Assembly: GCF_000730165.1 (NCBI RefSeq)
Contig: NZ_CP022110.1
Span: 1-64,000 of the forward strand
From: Nitrospirillum viridazoti CBAmc
GTDB lineage: Bacteria; Pseudomonadota; Alphaproteobacteria; Azospirillales; Azospirillaceae
Length of the DNA stretch: 64,000 nucleotides
Direction of reading: 5' to 3'
In this document: positions 38,086 to 54,426 of the stretch, piece by piece
Numbering within the stretch: the first letter of the stretch is position 1
Layout of the letters: each line of letters begins with the position of its first letter
Position numbers and translations under genes: made by a program
The notes under the pieces: generated by a model
The model's input: only the letters and a program-made list of their open reading frames with translations
Databases searched by the model: none
What the model was told of the DNA's origin: nothing

Positions 38086-39168
38086 TCATCCCTGATTTGA
38101 GGACGGCCATTCCTGGATCAAGTGGGCCAGTTCCGCAACATGCTCGGGCGGGGTCTGCTGCACGATGCCGTGGCCCAGGTTGAAGATGAAGGGTCCCTTG
38201 CCCAGCGTCGACAGGATATCCGTGGCGGCGCGGCGCAGCGCCGGCCCCCCCGCCACCAGGGCCATCGGATCCAGATTGCCCTGGACAGGCACGCGGCTCT
38301 GCAGGGCACTGACGGCCCAGTCCAGCGGAACGGACGTGTCCAGGCTGACGGCGTCCACCCCCGTCTGCTCCACATACGCCTGGATGCCTACGCCCGCTCC
38401 GCGCGGAAAGCCGATGACGGGCACCCCCGGATGCTTGTCCCTCAGGGCCCGCACGATGGCCCGGGTGGGGGCGATGGACCAGCGGGCGAATTCCGCCGGG
38501 GCCAGCGCGCCGGCCCAACTGTCGAACAGTTGCACCACCTCCGCACCCGCCCGGATCTGGGCGGACAGGTGGGTGACGGTGGTCTCGACCAGCAAATCGA
38601 TCAGGCGCTGGAAGCCCGCCGGATCCTTGTAGGCCCAGCCCTTGGCGTGCAGGAACTCCTTCGAGCCCGCCCCCTCGACCATATAGGTCGCGACAGTCCA
38701 GGGGCTGCCCGCGAAGCCGATGAGCGTCACCGGATCCGGCAGCGCCGCCCGGATACGCCGGACAGCCTCATAGACCGGTTCTGCCCGCTCTTCCAGATGG
38801 GCGACGTCCAGGCGGTCCAGCCCGGCCTGGTCGCGAATGGGATCCAGGCGCGGCCCCTCGCCTTCCGCGAACCATACCTTCTGTCCCAGGGCGTGCGGCA
38901 GGATCAGGATGTCGGAGAACAGGATGGCGGCATCCATGCCATAGCGCCGGATGGGCTGCAGCGTCACCTCCGTCGCCAGATCCGGCTTCAGGCACAGATC
39001 CAGGAAGCCGCCGGCCTGGGCCCGCACCTCGCGGTATTCGGGCAGATAGCGGCCGGCCTGGCGCATCAGCCAGAAGGGCGGACGGGGAGCGGTCTCACCC
39101 TTCAAGGTACGCAGCAGCAGGCGGTCCGGCCGGCTTTGGGGCTGGATCTGGGACAAGGCGATCTCCAT
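38086..39168 (-). CDS. hemE: Uroporphyrinogen decarboxylase
   Basis: Decarboxylates uroporphyrinogen III to coproporphyrinogen III. The 360-residue protein has the signature PPFWLMRQAGRYLPEYRE near residue 30 (Arg residues binding substrate carboxylates), AAILFSDILILPHALG with the catalytic Asp, and GFAGSPWTVATYMVEG. The start is the ATG at 39168, whose product begins MEIALSQIQ; the frame continues open for 50 more codons but that stretch is the candidate origin and is unlike coding sequence. hemE next to oriC is a classic alphaproteobacterial arrangement. Confidence 0.96.
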   Translation of the reverse strand: MEIALSQIQPQSRPDRLLLRTLKGETAPRPPFWLMRQAGRYLPEYREVRAQAGGFLDLCLKPDLATEVTLQPIRRYGMDAAILFSDILILPHALGQKVWFAEGEGPRLDPIRDQAGLDRLDVAHLEERAEPVYEAVRRIRAALPDPVTLIGFAGSPWTVATYMVEGAGSKEFLHAKGWAYKDPAGFQRLIDLLVETTVTHLSAQIRAGAEVVQLFDSWAGALAPAEFARWSIAPTRAIVRALRDKHPGVPVIGFPRGAGVGIQAYVEQTGVDAVSLDTSVPLDWAVSALQSRVPVQGNLDPMALVAGGPALRRAATDILSTLGKGPFIFNLGHGIVQQTPPEHVAELAHLIQEWPSSNQG

Positions 39169-39627
39169 AGGGGCGCCAGCGCGCTGGCAGCCGGGCCCGA
39201 CGTTTTCCCACAGGCCCCTTTTTCTACTCTGATCTAATTTGAAAAAGGAATGGGGTAGTAGTTGGCCCTGTGGATAACGGGAATTCAAGATCATCCGTAT
39301 TTCATCCACAGCGTTCACGGGATCCCGCGTCGGCTCTTCGGGATGTGGATGACGCTGCGGGGTTTCTGGTCAGAGCCTTGGAATGTTATAGATTCCATGA
39401 GGTTTGGGATCCTGGGGATAAGTGGGCGGCGCCGGTCATCGCCCCCGGTTGTTCCAAGGGGTGACGGACCTTTATCCCGATGCGGGATTCCCTCTGCGCG
39501 GGATCCCAGGAAGCCTGTATGAAAAGGAAATGGGATCCCGAAACGACGGATTTTTCCCGGATTGTTAGACGGTTTTCCCCAGATCCGGTCCACAGGCATC
39601 CAGTCCGCATCTTCCAAGACCACCCAT
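39169..39627. other. Candidate chromosomal replication origin (oriC) between hemE and ppsR
   Basis: A 459-base gap with no gene. DnaA boxes (consensus TTATCCACA): a perfect one on the minus strand at 39269-39277; one-mismatch boxes at 39302-39310 (+), 39344-39352 (-) and 39413-39421 (-); weaker ones at 39204-39212, 39472-39480 and 39573-39581. An AT-rich block at about 39219-39251 could be the unwinding element. GGGATCC(C/T) occurs at 39319, 39406, 39500 and 39532. Two GANTC methylation-type sites are at 39391 and 39486. In Caulobacter and Rickettsia oriC lies beside hemE, and gene direction here flips at this point. Confidence 0.8.
39269..39277 (-). promoter_or_regulatory. Perfect DnaA box in the candidate oriC
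   Basis: TGTGGATAA on the plus strand is the exact complement of TTATCCACA. It sits next to the AT-rich block at about 39219-39251. Confidence 0.8.
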
Positions 39628-40560
39628 ATGTCCGTTGCCGGAGCGACGCCCTTGCCCCAGACGCCCCAAACCAAGGAATTTCACCTGCACCTGGTGTCCG
39701 ATGCCACCGGCGAGACCATCAATTCCGTGGCGCGCGCCTGCGTCTCGCAGTTCGACCATGTCGAACCCATCGAGCATTTCTGGAACCTGGTCCGCACCGA
39801 CCGGCAGCTGGAGATGGTGATCGACGGCATTCGCGATAATCCGGGGCTGGTCATGTTCACCCTGGTGAACGAGCGCCTGCGCCGGCGCCTGCAGGACACC
39901 TGCCGCGAGATCGGCATCCCCTGTGTGCCGGTGCTGGACCACCTGATCAATTCGCTGGCCGCCTACCTCGGCTTGGAAAGCCAGAGCCAGCCGGGCCGTC
40001 AGCATGCCTTGGACGCGGAGTATTTCAGCCGCATCGACGCCATGGATTTCGCCCTGGGCCATGACGACGGCCAGACGGCGTGGGAGCTGCACCAGGCCGA
40101 CGTCATTCTGGTGGGCGTTTCGCGCACCTCCAAGACGCCGACCTGCATCTATCTGGCGAACCGCGGCATCAAGGCGGCCAACATTCCCTTCGTCCCCGGT
40201 TGCCCCCTGCCACCGGAACTGGACCAGGTGTCGCGCCCGCTGGTGGTGGGCCTGACCAAGGACCCGGAGCGGCTGATCCAGATCCGCCGCAACCGCCTGC
40301 GCCTGTTGAACCAGGGCGAGGAAACCAGCTACGTCGATCCCGAACAGGTCCGGTCGGAACTGTCGGAGGCGCGGCGGCTGTACAGCCGCAAGGGCTGGCC
40401 CGTCATCGATGTCACCCGCCGGTCCATCGAGGAGACTGCCGCCGAAATCCTCATGCTGCTGGCCCGCCGCCGTCCGGCGGGGGCCGAGCCCATCAACCCC
40501 GTGGGGGAGCCCGCGGAAGGTCCGCGCCTGTCCCCCCGCCCGCCCCATTCCGGAATGTGA
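39628..40560 (+). CDS. ppsR: Pyruvate,phosphate dikinase / PEP synthase regulatory protein
   Basis: A 310-residue bifunctional ADP-dependent kinase and Pi-dependent pyrophosphorylase (PPSR/PDRP, DUF299) that switches PEP synthase or PPDK off and on by Thr phosphorylation. The N-terminus HLHLVSDATGETINSVARA and the P-loop GVSRTSKTPTCIYLANRG near residue 165 are diagnostic. The ATG at 39628 is preferred over one 66 bases upstream in the origin region. It starts the rightward cluster ppsR-maf-aroE-coaE-dnaQ, the usual right flank of oriC in this class (counterpart of Rickettsia RP001). Confidence 0.94.
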   Translation: MSVAGATPLPQTPQTKEFHLHLVSDATGETINSVARACVSQFDHVEPIEHFWNLVRTDRQLEMVIDGIRDNPGLVMFTLVNERLRRRLQDTCREIGIPCVPVLDHLINSLAAYLGLESQSQPGRQHALDAEYFSRIDAMDFALGHDDGQTAWELHQADVILVGVSRTSKTPTCIYLANRGIKAANIPFVPGCPLPPELDQVSRPLVVGLTKDPERLIQIRRNRLRLLNQGEETSYVDPEQVRSELSEARRLYSRKGWPVIDVTRRSIEETAAEILMLLARRRPAGAEPINPVGEPAEGPRLSPRPPHSGM

Positions 40561-48781: not shown

Positions 48782-50122
48782 ATGTCCCTCTATAGCACCG
48801 ACACCATCTTCGCCCTGGCCTCCGCCCCCGGCCGGGGCGGTGTCCAGGTTATCCGCCTGTCCGGCCCGGCGGCAGGAACCGCCCTGCCCGCCCTGACGCG
48901 CAGGCCCCTGCCCCCGCCCCGCCGGGCCACGTTGGCGCGGCTGCATGACCAGGCGGGCGAGGTGTTCGACCAGGCGCTGGTGCTGTGGTTCCCGGGGCCG
49001 GACAGCTTCACCGGCGAGGATGTGGCGGAACTGCACCTGCATGGCGGTCGCGCCGTGCTGGCCGCCGCCAGCGAGGCGTTGACCGCCCAGGGATTGCGTG
49101 TGGCGGAACCGGGGGAATTCAGCCGCCGCGCCTTTGAGGCGGGCAAGCTGGACCTGACCGAGGCGGAAGCCATCGCCGATCTGGTCGATGCCGAGACCGC
49201 GGCCCAGCGTCGCCAAGCTCTGCGCCAGATGGAAGGCGCCCTGGGTGCCCTGTACGAGGGTTGGCGACATCGCCTGGTACGGGCGCTGGCCCATCTGGAG
49301 GCGGATATCGATTTCCCGGATGAGGACTTGCCCCACGGCCTGGCGCCGGCGGTGGTCCCCGTCTTGACAGGCCTGTACCAGGAAATCGGCGTCCACCTGG
49401 CCGACGGTCATCGTGGAGAACGGCTGCGCGACGGCTTTTCCATCGCCATCCTGGGGGCGCCCAACGCCGGCAAGTCCAGCTTGCTGAACGCCCTGGCGCG
49501 GCGGGACGCGGCCATCGTCTCCTCCACCGCCGGCACGACGCGCGATGTCATAGAGGTGAACCTGGACTTGGGCGGCTTCCCCGTCATCCTGGCCGACACT
49601 GCCGGTTTGCGCGACGCCGCCGATGAGATCGAGCGTGAGGGTATCCGCCGGGCGCTGGCCCGCGCGGAAAGGGCGGATCTGAAGCTGCTGGTGCTGGATT
49701 GTTCCACGTGGAACATCGGCGATATGGCGGAGGCCACCTTAGCTCTGGCCGATGGTGATGCGCTGGTGGTGCTGAACAAGCGCGACCTGTGTACCTACGT
49801 GCCATCCATGGTCGCCGGCCGCACCGCCATCGCCGTCTCCGCCGCCACCGGCGAAGGGCTGGCGGATCTGTTGGCGGCCCTGGAACGCATCGTCGGCGAT
49901 CGCCTGATGCCGGGCGCTGCCCCGTCCCTCACCCGTGCCCGCCATCGCCAGGCCCTGGAGGATTGCCGCGCCGCCCTGGCCCGCGCGCTGAGGGCCGATT
50001 TGCCAGAGCTGGCCGCGGAGGATGTTCGCCTGGCCGCCCGCGCCCTGGGCCGCATCACCGGCCGGGTGGATGTGGAAGACCTGCTGGACGTGATCTTCCG
50101 TGATTTTTGCATCGGGAAGTGA
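48782..50122 (+). CDS. mnmE: tRNA modification GTPase MnmE
   Basis: MnmE works with MnmG to make (carboxymethyl)aminomethyl-U34 in tRNA. The 446-residue protein has the N-terminal folate-binding domain (DTIFALASAPGRGGVQVIRLSGP), the G domain with G1 GAPNAGKSS near residues 225-233, G3 DTAGLRD and G4 NKRD, and the C-terminal FCIGK whose Cys is needed for modification. A parS-like site (49700-49715) lies within codons 307-311. It starts the conserved mnmE-mnmG-rsmG-parA-parB run. Confidence 0.97.
   Translation: MSLYSTDTIFALASAPGRGGVQVIRLSGPAAGTALPALTRRPLPPPRRATLARLHDQAGEVFDQALVLWFPGPDSFTGEDVAELHLHGGRAVLAAASEALTAQGLRVAEPGEFSRRAFEAGKLDLTEAEAIADLVDAETAAQRRQALRQMEGALGALYEGWRHRLVRALAHLEADIDFPDEDLPHGLAPAVVPVLTGLYQEIGVHLADGHRGERLRDGFSIAILGAPNAGKSSLLNALARRDAAIVSSTAGTTRDVIEVNLDLGGFPVILADTAGLRDAADEIEREGIRRALARAERADLKLLVLDCSTWNIGDMAEATLALADGDALVVLNKRDLCTYVPSMVAGRTAIAVSAATGEGLADLLAALERIVGDRLMPGAAPSLTRARHRQALEDCRAALARALRADLPELAAEDVRLAARALGRITGRVDVEDLLDVIFRDFCIGK
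49700..49715. promoter_or_regulatory. parS-type site inside mnmE
   Basis: TGTTCCACGTGGAACA, a perfect 16-base palindrome differing from canonical parS at two symmetric positions (T to C and A to G). It encodes Cys-Ser-Thr-Trp-Asn in the G domain. Confidence 0.75.
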
Positions 50123-50136
50123 ATACCCCCGCGCTG

Positions 50137-50152
50137 TGTTTCACGTGAAACA
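50137..50152. promoter_or_regulatory. parS site between mnmE and mnmG
   Basis: Exact canonical parS palindrome TGTTTCACGTGAAACA, 15 bases after the mnmE stop. ParB binds such sites near oriC. Confidence 0.93.
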
Positions 50153-50231
50153 TGGGGCGAACATGGATTCATGGTGGTCATCCCCTGGCACCCTTTGACT
50201 CGCCCGCCCGCCGCCCCTAAAGTCCGGCGCC

Positions 50232-52139
50232 ATGCACACTTATGACGTCATCGTGGTTGGCGCCGGCCATGCCGGCTGCGAAGCGGCGGCCGCCGCTTCG
50301 CGGCTGGGCGCCCGTACCGCCCTGTACACCCATCGCCTCGACACGGTCGGGGAGATGAGCTGCAACCCGGCCATTGGTGGTTTGGGTAAGGGCCACCTTG
50401 TCCGTGAGATCGATGCCATGGACGGCGTCATGGGCCGGGTGACCGACCGTGCCGGCATCCAGTTCCGCGTGCTGAACAAATCCAAGGGTCCGGCGGTCCG
50501 CGGGCCGCGCGCCCAGGCGGACCGCAAGCTGTACCGCCACGCCATGCAGGCCATTCTGGCCGAGCAAGAGAACCTGACGCTGGTGGCCGCCGCTGTCGAG
50601 GACCTGGTGATCGACGGCCATGGTCGCGTGGGCGGCATCATCACCGCCAGCGGTGAGACAGTCCTGGCCGGTGCCGTGGTGTTGACCACAGGCACCTTCC
50701 TGCGCGGCCTGATCCACATTGGGGAGGAGAAGATCCCCGCCGGCCGCGTGGGTGAGGCGCCGGCCCTGGGCCTGTCCGACACGCTGCTGCGCGTGGGCTT
50801 TCCCCTGGGTCGGCTTAAGACCGGCACGCCACCGCGCCTGGACGGCCGAACCATCGATTGGGCCAGCCTTGAGATGCAGCCGGGCGATGATCCGCCCCCG
50901 CCCTTCTCCTATCTCACGGATCGGATCACCACACCGCAGGTGCCCTGCCACATCACCTGGACCAGTGCCCGCGTGCATGAGGTCATCCGCGCCAACCTGC
51001 ACCGCGCGCCCATGTATTCCGGCCAGATCGAGGGCATCGGCCCGCGCTATTGCCCGTCGGTGGAGGACAAGATCGTCCGCTTCGCCGATAAGGAGCGGCA
51101 CCAGATTTTCCTGGAGCCGGAGGGCCTGGACGACGACACCGTCTATCCCAACGGCATCTCCACCTCCTTGCCCCGCGATGTGCAGCTGGAGATCCTGAAA
51201 GCCATCCCAGGGCTGGAGCATGTCACCATGCTGCGGCCGGGCTATGCCATTGAATACGATTACGTCGATCCGCGCGAGCTGGGCCCGACGCTGGAGACGC
51301 GCCGCCTGCCCCGCTTGTTCCTGGCGGGCCAGATCAACGGCACCACGGGGTATGAGGAGGCGGCGGCTCAGGGCTTGGTGGCTGGCCTCAATGCGGCCCT
51401 GGCCGTGTCGGGTTCGGCACCCTTCGTCTTGGACCGTGCCGAATCCTATATCGGCGTGATGATCGACGACCTGATCACCCGTGGCACGTCGGAGCCCTAC
51501 CGCATGTTCACCAGCCGGGCTGAATATCGCCTGCTGCTGCGCGCCGACAACGCCGATCAACGCCTGACGCCGCGCGGGCTGTCGCTGGGCTGCGTGGGCG
51601 AGGTGCGGGCCGCCGCTTTCGGCGCCAAGCTGGCCGCCCTGGACCACGCCCGCCACGTGGCCGGCACCCTGTCGGCCACACCCAATGAGCTGGCCAAGCA
51701 TGGTCTGACCATCAACCAGGATGGCGTGCGCCGCAGCGTCGCCGACCTGCTGCGCTATCCCGACATCGACTTGGCCCGTCTGGGCGCCATTTGGCCGGAC
51801 CTGCGGGGCTTCTCGTCGGAGATCGCCGAGCAGGTGGAGATCGATGGGCGCTATGCCGGCTATCTCGACCGGCAGGAGGCTGACATCCGCGCCTTCCGCC
51901 GGGATGAAGCCCTGGCCTTGCCGGTCGATCTGGACGTGGACGCCATCGCCTCGCTATCCGCGGAAATCCGCACCAAGCTGCGCCAAGTGCGTCCCGCCAC
52001 CTTGGGGGCCGCCGCCCGTATGCCGGGCATGACGCCGGCGGCGCTGACAGCCCTGCTACGCCATGTGAAGAAGCGGCCTGCCCGCGGGACCGATCAGGAC
52101 GCCCCCGCCAATTCCGACGACACCACGAGTGCCGCATGA
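50232..52139 (+). CDS. mnmG: tRNA uridine-5-carboxymethylaminomethyl synthesis enzyme MnmG (GidA)
   Basis: FAD-dependent partner of MnmE. The 635-residue protein has the dinucleotide-binding start [16 protein letters not shown] (residues 4-19), [21 protein letters not shown] near residue 45, [11 protein letters not shown] near residue 155 with LKTGTPPRL, and [17 protein letters not shown] near residue 370. The C-terminal helical domain binds MnmE. It ends overlapping rsmG (ATGA). Between mnmE and mnmG lie 109 bases containing a parS site. Confidence 0.97.
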
Positions 52140-52744
52140 CCCCTGCTGATTTCGCCAGCCGCTTCCATGTTTCACGTGAAACATTGGATCGGCTCACCAT
52201 CTATGCTCAGTTGCTGGCCAAGTGGAACCCAGCCATCAACCTGGTGGCCAAATCCACCGTACCGGATGTCTGGGACCGCCACATGGCGGATAGCGCCCAG
52301 CTGTACGCCCTGCTGCCCCCGGGCACGCGTACGCAGGTGGATATGGGCAGCGGCGCTGGATTTCCCGGCCTAGTCATGGCCATCCTGGGTGTACCGGATG
52401 TCCACCTGATCGAGAGTGACACGCGCAAGGCCACCTTTCTGCGGGAGGTGGCGCGCGCGACGGGAACCCCGGTGACCGTGCATGCCCAGCGCATCGAACA
52501 GGCGCCGGAGATCGCGGCCGACGTGGTCACGGCCCGCGCCTTGGCTGCCCTACCCGAACTGCTGGACTGGGGCTACCGTTTCCTGAAGCCGGGGGCCACG
52601 TGCCTCTTCCTGAAGGGCAGGACAGCCCCCGAGGAATTGACCCTGGCCGCCCAATCCTGGACAATGACCGTCTCCCAAGTCCCCAGCATCACGGACACAT
52701 CGGGGACCATCCTAATTCTTGGTGAGATTGCCCGTGCCCGCTGA
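52136..52744 (+). CDS. rsmG: 16S rRNA (guanine527-N7)-methyltransferase RsmG (GidB)
   Basis: Methylates G527 of 16S rRNA with SAM; its loss gives low-level streptomycin resistance in many bacteria. The 202-residue protein has [13 protein letters not shown] near residue 29, the SAM loop [16 protein letters not shown] (about residues 68-83) and [16 protein letters not shown] near residue 127. A canonical parS site is embedded at codons 11-16 (His-Val-Ser-Arg-Glu-Thr), as in other alphaproteobacterial rsmG genes. Its 3' end overlaps parA by 11 bases. Confidence 0.96.
52168..52183. promoter_or_regulatory. parS site inside the 5' end of rsmG
   Basis: Exact canonical TGTTTCACGTGAAACA, identical to the site at 50137, embedded in codons 11-16 of rsmG and 566 bases before parA. 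Confidence 0.93.
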
Positions 52745-53552
52745 CGCCCCCACCCCCGCGCCCAAGCGAGCGCGCATCCTGGCTCTTGCCAACCAGAAGG
52801 GCGGCGTGGGTAAGACCACGACCACCATCAACCTGGGAACGGCCCTCGCGGCCACCGGCAAGCGCGTGCTGATCGTCGACAACGATCCGCAGGGCAACGC
52901 CTCCACCGGCCTGGGCATCGGCCGGACGGAACGCGGCACCGGCACTTATGAGCTGCTGTTCGGCGAGACGACGGTGGAGGCTTCGGTGCGCGGCACCAGC
53001 ATCCCCAAGCTGTTCGTTGTCACCGCCTCGGCCGACCTGTCGGGCGCTGAGCTGGAACTGGTGGAACTGGAGCGGCGTGAGTTCCGCCTGCGCGACGCGT
53101 TGACCAGCGCCACTGCCGACTACGACTACATCTTGATCGACTGCCCACCAGCCCTGGGGTTGCTGACCCTGAACGCCCTGGCGGCGGCCGATTCGGTACT
53201 AGTGCCCCTGCAGTGTGAGTTCTATGCCCTGGAAGGCCTGTCGCAGCTGATCCGCACCATCGAACGGGTGAAGCGCACGTTCAACCCGGCCCTGGAAATC
53301 CAGGGCGTGGTGCTGACCATGTTCGACCGGCGCAACAACCTGTCCGACATGGTGGCCGCCGATGTGCGCGGCTTCTTCGGTGAGAAAGTGTATGAGACGG
53401 TCATTCCCCGCAATGTCCGTGTTTCCGAGGCGCCCAGCCACGGCAAGCCCGTGCTGCTCTACGACCTGAAGTCGGCGGGCGCCAAAGCCTATATTCATTT
53501 GGCGGGAGAGGTTCTGAAGCGTGAGCGTAACCGGCAGTCAGTCCATGGATGA
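52734..53552 (+). CDS. parA: Chromosome partitioning ATPase ParA
   Basis: ParA ATPase that moves ParB-parS complexes and so segregates origins. The 272-residue protein has the deviant Walker A KGGVGKTTT (residues 22-30, signature Lys22), IVDNDPQGNASTGLG near residue 43, and ILIDCPPALGLLTLNAL near residue 124. It is the Soj-like small type without an N-terminal HTH, as expected for a chromosomal system. The start is GTG at 52734, with GGTGAG eight bases upstream, inside the end of rsmG; other TTG/GTG starts up to 15 bases earlier are possible. Overlaps parB by 32 bases. Confidence 0.96.
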   Translation: MPADAPTPAPKRARILALANQKGGVGKTTTTINLGTALAATGKRVLIVDNDPQGNASTGLGIGRTERGTGTYELLFGETTVEASVRGTSIPKLFVVTASADLSGAELELVELERREFRLRDALTSATADYDYILIDCPPALGLLTLNALAAADSVLVPLQCEFYALEGLSQLIRTIERVKRTFNPALEIQGVVLTMFDRRNNLSDMVAADVRGFFGEKVYETVIPRNVRVSEAPSHGKPVLLYDLKSAGAKAYIHLAGEVLKRERNRQSVHG

Positions 53553-54426
53553 GATGAAGAAGCGCAGCAACCTGGGGCGTGGCCTGTCCGCGCTGTTTGC
53601 CGAGGTGGCGGACGAGCAGGAGCCGGTGGAAAAGGGACGTCCGCCCCGGACTTTGCCCATCGAACTGCTGCACCCCGGCCGCTACCAGCCCCGCCGCCAC
53701 TTCGATGAAGAGGCCATTCGCAGCCTGGTGGACAGCGTCCGCGAGCGCGGCGTGCTGCAGCCCATCCTGGTGCGCAAGGTGGAAGAGGCGGTGGCCGGTG
53801 GCAGCGCCCGCTATGAGATCATCGCGGGGGAGCGCCGCTGGCGCGCCGCCCAGTTGGCCGGCCTGCACGAGGTGCCGGTGGTGGTGCGGTCGCTGACCGA
53901 CCGCGAGGCCCTGGAAATCGCGCTGGTGGAAAACATCCAGCGCCAGGACCTGACGCCCCTGGAAGAGGCCGAGGGCTTTCAGCGCCTGATGGATGAATTC
54001 CAGCATACGCAAGAGGACCTGGCCCGCGCCGTGGGCAAGAGCCGCAGCCACGTGGCCAACATGCTGCGCCTGCTGGCCCTACCCGACGCGGTGAAGGCGC
54101 TGGTGCAGGACGGCAGCCTGACCATGGGCCATGCCCGCGCCCTGCTGACGGCCGCTGATCCCCTTGCCCTGGCGCGTGAAGTGGTGAAGCGCGGCCTGAA
54201 CGTCCGCCAGACGGAACAGCTGGTGAAGGACGCCGCCAATCCAGCCACCCGTCCCGCGCCGGCACCCAAAACCGCCGATACCCTGGCCCTGGAAAAGGAA
54301 CTGGCGGCCGAGCTGGGCCTGAAGGTGGCGCTAAAGGCCAAGGGTCAGGCGGGCAGCCTGACCGTGCACTACAGCAACCTGGATCAGTTGGACGGGCTTC
54401 TGGCACGCCTGAAGCACCAGCACTGA
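53521..54426 (+). CDS. parB: Chromosome partitioning protein ParB
   Basis: ParB binds parS, spreads with CTP and loads SMC. The 301-residue protein has LGRGLSALF (ParA-stimulating N-terminal segment), the CTP/ParB-N motif GERRWRAAQLAGL near residue 100, LVENIQRQDLTPLEEAEGFQRLM, and the HTH QEDLARAVGKSRSHVANMLRLL near residue 165, then a C-terminal dimerisation domain. The GTG at 53521 has a GGGAGAGG upstream and is preferred; the ATG at 53545 is an alternative that starts closer to LGRGL. Ends at a very strong terminator. Its parS sites are at 49700, 50137 and 52168. Confidence 0.96.
   Translation: MSVTGSQSMDEMKKRSNLGRGLSALFAEVADEQEPVEKGRPPRTLPIELLHPGRYQPRRHFDEEAIRSLVDSVRERGVLQPILVRKVEEAVAGGSARYEIIAGERRWRAAQLAGLHEVPVVVRSLTDREALEIALVENIQRQDLTPLEEAEGFQRLMDEFQHTQEDLARAVGKSRSHVANMLRLLALPDAVKALVQDGSLTMGHARALLTAADPLALAREVVKRGLNVRQTEQLVKDAANPATRPAPAPKTADTLALEKELAAELGLKVALKAKGQAGSLTVHYSNLDQLDGLLARLKHQH

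Follow-up and report, generated by a model that had tools for sequence, protein, structure and literature searches.

The 459-bp gap between the divergent hemE and ppsR genes of Nitrospirillum (positions 39169-39627) is very probably the DnaA-dependent replication origin of the main chromosome, C1. Its layout resembles that of known origins of its class, with the addition of a conserved palindrome, GGGATCCC. The initial annotation of this DNA had proposed the gap as the origin from its position and motifs, and the proposal is supported here by the GC skew of the chromosome arms, by nearby parS sites, by an array of DnaA boxes that is conserved in relatives and by a gene pair shared with the Caulobacter origin. 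This soil bacterium belongs to a nitrogen-fixing genus that has several large replicons, and the probable origin of the main chromosome is thereby placed.

The window, the whole stretch of 64,000 bases that was analysed (C1:1-64000), belongs to a contig of 2,945,703 bases, one of four in a genome of 7,382,386 bases. The gene for uroporphyrinogen decarboxylase, hemE (38086-39168, minus strand, PF01208), starts at 39168 and the kinase/pyrophosphorylase gene ppsR (39628-40560, plus strand, PF03618) starts at 39628, which bears out the limits originally given for the gap. We take ppsR to be the DUF299/COG1806 gene of the Caulobacter origin, and the gap accordingly has hemE and COG1806/ppsR as its divergent flanks. 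Nitrospirillum amazonense BR 12005 has a ppsR protein of the same sequence (100% identity). The whole gap has an AT content of 44%.

As had been reported, no gene was recognised in the gap. Rfam returned nothing at gathering scores across 38900-39900, and an alignment of seven genomes shows single-base insertions or deletions (at 39405, 39442, 39487 and 39527, among others) within the two frames of 119 aa that extend into the gap. A scan for sigma-70 promoters and terminators across 39150-39650 gave no promoter-like or terminator site. The element TGNTATAG (39384-39392, plus strand) is a candidate extended -10 promoter towards ppsR; seven of the eight columns of 39384-39391 are invariant in the seven Nitrospirillum genomes and the element is visible in many Azospirillum gaps. 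It may be a promoter from which transcription towards ppsR crosses the origin. To the left of the gap, 55 of 67 script-inferred genes (window positions 1-39168 and the preceding 40 kb) are on the minus strand and run in the same direction as a fork that leaves the gap leftwards, and from 39.6 to 160 kb there are 50 plus-strand and 47 minus-strand genes, likewise script-inferred.

DnaA boxes were scored against the consensus TTATCCACA, counting sites with at most one mismatch, and the motif scan recovered all four boxes of the initial annotation, one exact and three with one mismatch, on both strands. The exact box, named R1, lies on the minus strand at 39269-39277 inside an invariant 14-mer (39267-39280). 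The one-mismatch boxes are TCATCCACA at 39302-39310 (plus strand, 33 bp from R1), TCATCCACA again at 39344-39352 (minus strand, 75 bp from R1) and TTATCCCCA at 39413-39421 (minus strand, 144 bp from R1). A sample of 864,000 bases of C1, consisting of the window and 40 stretches of 20 kb and covering about 29% of C1, contains 54 such boxes; therefore, 0.03 boxes are expected per 459 bp, compared to the four observed. The gap is the densest place for boxes in this sample, the next having three, and it carries the cluster above chance that is looked for in an oriC. Across the entire 7.38-Mb genome, the exact 9-mer TTATCCACA occurs 11 times. The second-densest cluster of the sample consists of three boxes at C1:807831. 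Directly downstream of it begins a gene for the large subunit of ribonucleotide reductase (PF00317, PF02867), which is known to be regulated by DnaA in other bacteria, and by analogy the cluster possibly serves the same regulation here.

Between hemE and R1 lies the 40-mer at 39218-39257, which nearest-neighbour energies rank as the least stable in the 64-kb window and which matches the AT-rich block first noted at about 39219-39251. It is a candidate DNA unwinding element with 26 of its 40 columns invariant in seven genomes, and it gives the gap an easily melted AT-rich block beside a box, another feature looked for in an oriC. From this arrangement we infer a mechanism whereby DnaA would bind R1 at 39269 together with the weaker boxes at 39302, 39344 and 39413, and a DnaA oligomer would reach leftwards into the weak block at 39218-39257. 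Melting of the block would allow helicase loading, replication would then proceed bidirectionally from the gap, and ParB together with the parS sites 10-13 kb away would segregate the new origins.

The gap and its box array are conserved in relatives. Out of 212 ppsR loci, 80 were retained, and hemE lies divergently upstream of ppsR in 76 of them (it was not found upstream in L074, L088, L091 and L100). The compared gap sequences span the aligned protein ends and hence include some coding letters. At least one box is present in 72 of the 76 gaps and at least two in 62, while among 988 length-matched control segments from the same loci 90 have at least one and three have at least two; the gaps of L080, L081, L084 and L090 have none. 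The spacing of the boxes is also recurrent: over the 76 gaps, a minus-strand box followed by a plus-strand box at 33 bp was counted 23 times, and minus-minus pairs at 142, 143 and 145 bp were counted 13, 10 and 4 times, respectively, these figures being pair counts to which many closely related Azospirillum loci contribute. When the seven Nitrospirillum genomes were aligned, which are all those examined in the genus search, 31 of 36 columns were invariant in the boxes and 19 of 24 in three copies of the palindrome, compared to 166 of 399 elsewhere.

Evidence from the rest of the chromosome points to the same region. Three parS sites without mismatches to the consensus TGTTNCACGTGNAACA start at 49700, 50137 and 52168 (together 49700-52183), beside gidA/mnmG (50232-52139, plus strand) and parB (53521-54426, plus strand). 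At up to one mismatch they are the only parS matches in the whole 7.38-Mb genome, and all lie 10-13 kb from the gap; nearness to parS is a usual, rather than a defining, feature of a DnaA-dependent oriC. In twenty 20-kb stretches sampled around C1, the GC skew is positive in 10 of the 11 that lie between 64 kb and 1.553 Mb, and all nine between 1.680 Mb and the contig end have a negative skew. The sampled skew thus changes sign near the gap region and again roughly opposite to it, the point of C1 facing the gap being 1.512 Mb.

Close to the gap, the skew is less orderly. The raw skew in the 39 kb to its left is +0.014, the wrong sign for a left arm, and +0.010 to its right within the window. 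A finer curve in 4-kb steps, covering -220 to +310 kb except for 204-210 kb, reaches its lowest point at C1:1, which is 39 kb away from the gap, and the basin around this point is wide and irregular (about -40 to +12 kb). The skew at fourfold sites of 467 script-inferred genes, balanced for gene strand, gave no usable change point, the best ones being scattered between about -95 and +220 kb at nearly equal likelihood, and the raw skew near the gap largely tracks gene orientation. Local skew consequently places the origin no better than to within about 100-200 kb, and taken together with the arm signs it supports the region rather than the exact place. In the skew check put forward in the initial annotation, the signs of the arms agree with an origin in this region, and the minimum falls 39 kb away from the gap at a resolution too low to decide the matter. 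Around the circle, the dnaA gene (C1:2800817) is separated from the gap by about 184 kb, and the sampled stretch that contains it has no place with at least two boxes within 459 bp. A whole-genome search at up to two mismatches with a dif pattern that may be wrong for this group found no match, and the position of the terminus is therefore taken from the skew alone.

These observations bear on two other accounts of where C1 replication begins. The gap presumably holds the promoters of both hemE and ppsR, and it might be nothing other than their divergent promoter region, with DnaA acting as a transcription regulator and the origin lying elsewhere on C1. The second-best box cluster indeed sits upstream of the ribonucleotide reductase gene and not at an origin, and the local skew fails to pin the origin to the gap. 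An origin is nevertheless indicated by the parS sites, the arm skew, the weak block beside R1, the recurrent box spacings in relatives and the gene pair shared with Caulobacter, and we regard a promoter-only role as very unlikely. Still less credible, to the point of being nearly negligible, is initiation of C1 from a plasmid-type initiator. The RPA gene at C1:1021590 has an open frame, with a ParA-like gene behind it, but the sampled stretches that flank this place, at 945 and 1092 kb, agree in the sign of their skew, and a nearby relaxase/DUF3363 gene and a G+C content down to 0.59 would fit an integrated conjugative element. A DnaA-dependent origin in the hemE-ppsR gap remains the account that we favor.

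Plasmid-type replication genes were noted on both C1 and C2. The segment C1:1006001-1042000 (L134, L135) carries a plasmid-type initiator (PF10134), then a ParA-like gene and a relaxase/DUF3363 gene, and looks like an integrated conjugative element on the main chromosome. At C2:1986000-1991076 (L136), parB and parA come first, then a gap of 0.99 kb that contains repeats of 18-20 bp, and then an RPA-type initiator. This is the probable plasmid-type origin of replicon C2; its 0.99-kb gap has one one-mismatch DnaA box and no GGGATCCC. RepC (PF03428) was not found, a weak negative since the control genomes likewise gave no match over the cut-off.

We assigned the origin to a class by looking for the sites of its known regulators. 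CtrA sites (TTAA-N7-TTAA) are absent from the gap at zero or one mismatch, with one match at two mismatches and no TTAA anywhere in the gap. IHF sites are absent at zero or one mismatch to either consensus; at two mismatches, there are 13 matches to the looser consensus (5.3 expected), which we attribute to the higher AT content of the gap, and none to the other. CtrA and IHF therefore probably do not act at the gap through their known sites, and a CtrA-controlled origin of the Caulobacter type is ruled out by the lack of either site at up to one mismatch. The missing CtrA sites are unsurprising, as such sites are mostly missing from the other origins of the class: the available text of PMC4468827 reports none outside Caulobacter, except possibly in Rickettsia prowazekii, and that of PMC1914354 mentions some predicted in Wolbachia and its kin. 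Two DnaA-trios (3'-GATGAT-5') lie 7 bases from R1, fewer than the three or more NAN trios within 16 bases of a box used in a published search, as described in the part of PMC8287927 available. The four Nitrospirillum gaps L024-L027 have 1, 0, 0 and 0 trios. Of 77 gaps (the window included), 64 have a usable box, and 27 of these have at least three trios, compared to 11.6 expected from shuffles. With neither CtrA nor IHF sites at up to one mismatch and with fewer than three trios, we file the gap as a DnaA-type origin at the alphaproteobacterial hemE-COG1806 locus.

An unexpected feature of the gap is the palindrome GGGATCCC, which the initial annotation did not describe and which occurs at 39319, 39500 and 39532. 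The first copy, P1, is part of the longer palindrome CGGGATCCCG (39318-39327), and both P1 and P2 (39500-39507) are invariant in all seven Nitrospirillum genomes (16 of 16 columns of their GGGATCCC copies); P3 (39532-39539) has three of eight columns invariant. A related GGATCC element adjoins the box at 39413 (39406-39412, five of seven columns invariant), with GGATCC missing in one of the seven genomes. Each of the seven gaps has two or three copies of GGGATCCC, and CGGGATCCCG is present at P1 in every one while having 4 to 14 copies per genome overall. The genome has 76 copies of GGGATCCC, three of them inside 221 bp of the gap, and among the 50 of these 76 matches that were listed (35 on C1 and 15 on C2) no other two are within 2 kb of each other. 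The other 11 copies in the 864-kb sample all fall in frames of at least 150 aa, which, at so high a genomic G+C content, says little about coding. We selected the motif after inspecting the sequence, and in a control with random windows of the 864-kb sample an 8-mer was as extreme in 12 of 2,999. Enrichment of GGGATCCC alone is thus not decisive, and its conservation is the stronger argument.

Outside Nitrospirillum, GGGATCCC is rare in the gaps, and the shorter GGATCC was counted as well. Over the 76 relatives, its density is 1.55 per kb in the gaps and 0.38 per kb in the remaining sequence of these loci, and without the four Nitrospirillum loci there are still 37 in 31,786 gap bases, or 1.16 per kb. 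Two Azospirillum loci have at least four in the gap, L033 (6) and L060 (4), and the flanks of L060 hold 17 more. In 9 of 42 gaps, the second box is followed by GGATCC at a distance of at most 30 bases, compared to 0.30 expected from composition shuffles; four of these nine are Nitrospirillum, and L055 and L057 are identical there.

Two simple explanations of the palindrome were set aside. It is unlikely to be a weak DnaA site, since by eye it appears to keep only the GGAT core of the box, and GATC methylation was rejected as a reason for GGATCC since PF02086, the Dam-family methylase and the sole family searched, was not found in the genome. Probably, GGGATCCC binds a further protein, for replication or for transcription. 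Service to hemE or ppsR transcription, whatever the origin, has somewhat less than an even chance: in its favor are the location of the palindromes, where hemE and ppsR must share a promoter region, and the rarity of GGGATCCC in the gaps of other genera, while the position of P1 between two DnaA boxes and the excess of GGATCC behind the second box weigh somewhat against it. More speculatively, the palindromes might be the sites of an origin-binding regulator in Nitrospirillum and some Azospirillum that replaces the role of CtrA and IHF at the Caulobacter origin, which we consider a rather doubtful proposal. If they do bind a regulator, they offer a direct route to whatever acts there in place of CtrA.

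Our literature search, with subscription journals mostly outside its reach and most matches judged by their listing, turned up no recognised description of the gap's origin or of GGGATCCC in Nitrospirillum or Azospirillum. In the available part of PMC6842974, GGGATCCC appears only within a BamHI primer. PMC9756655, again in its available part, describes the use of Ori-Finder on chromosomes of Alphaproteobacteria and mentions N. amazonense CBAmc; a computed origin prediction for the species may therefore already exist.

Compared with known systems, the gap shares with Escherichia coli oriC a consensus R box immediately next to the unwinding element and further boxes all on one side (as described in the accessible text of PMC6727663), whereas the flanks there are gidA and mioC and the Nitrospirillum gap has no IHF site, nor was a PF02086 methylase found. 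In contrast to the basal unwinding system of Bacillus subtilis, for which the available text of PMC8287927 asks for at least three DnaA-trios, the gap has two. The predicted Rickettsia prowazekii origin lies at the same gene pair but is 82.55% AT (PMC1914354, in part), compared to 44% here, and has CtrA and IHF sites according to a cited title, of which we found none. The initial annotation had called hemE beside oriC established for both Caulobacter and Rickettsia. The accessible portion of PMC1914354 upholds this for Caulobacter, whose origin, between hemE and COG1806/DUF299, was then the only experimentally identified one in the class; the Rickettsia origin at hemE-COG1806 was placed by prediction from gene order and motifs, and 'established' is therefore too strong for it.

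A close counterpart is the Caulobacter crescentus origin, Cori, which lies between hemE and COG1806 and is of similar size and composition (404 bp and 43.56% AT in the available text of PMC1914354, compared to 459 bp and 44% AT). Cori uses moderate G-boxes and very weak W-boxes, as described in the part of PMC4468827 available, whereas the Nitrospirillum gap has an exact DnaA box, and it has GGGATCCC palindromes and no CtrA or IHF sites at up to one mismatch. The comparison suggests that the Caulobacter origin locus persists in this family without recognisable CtrA or IHF sites.
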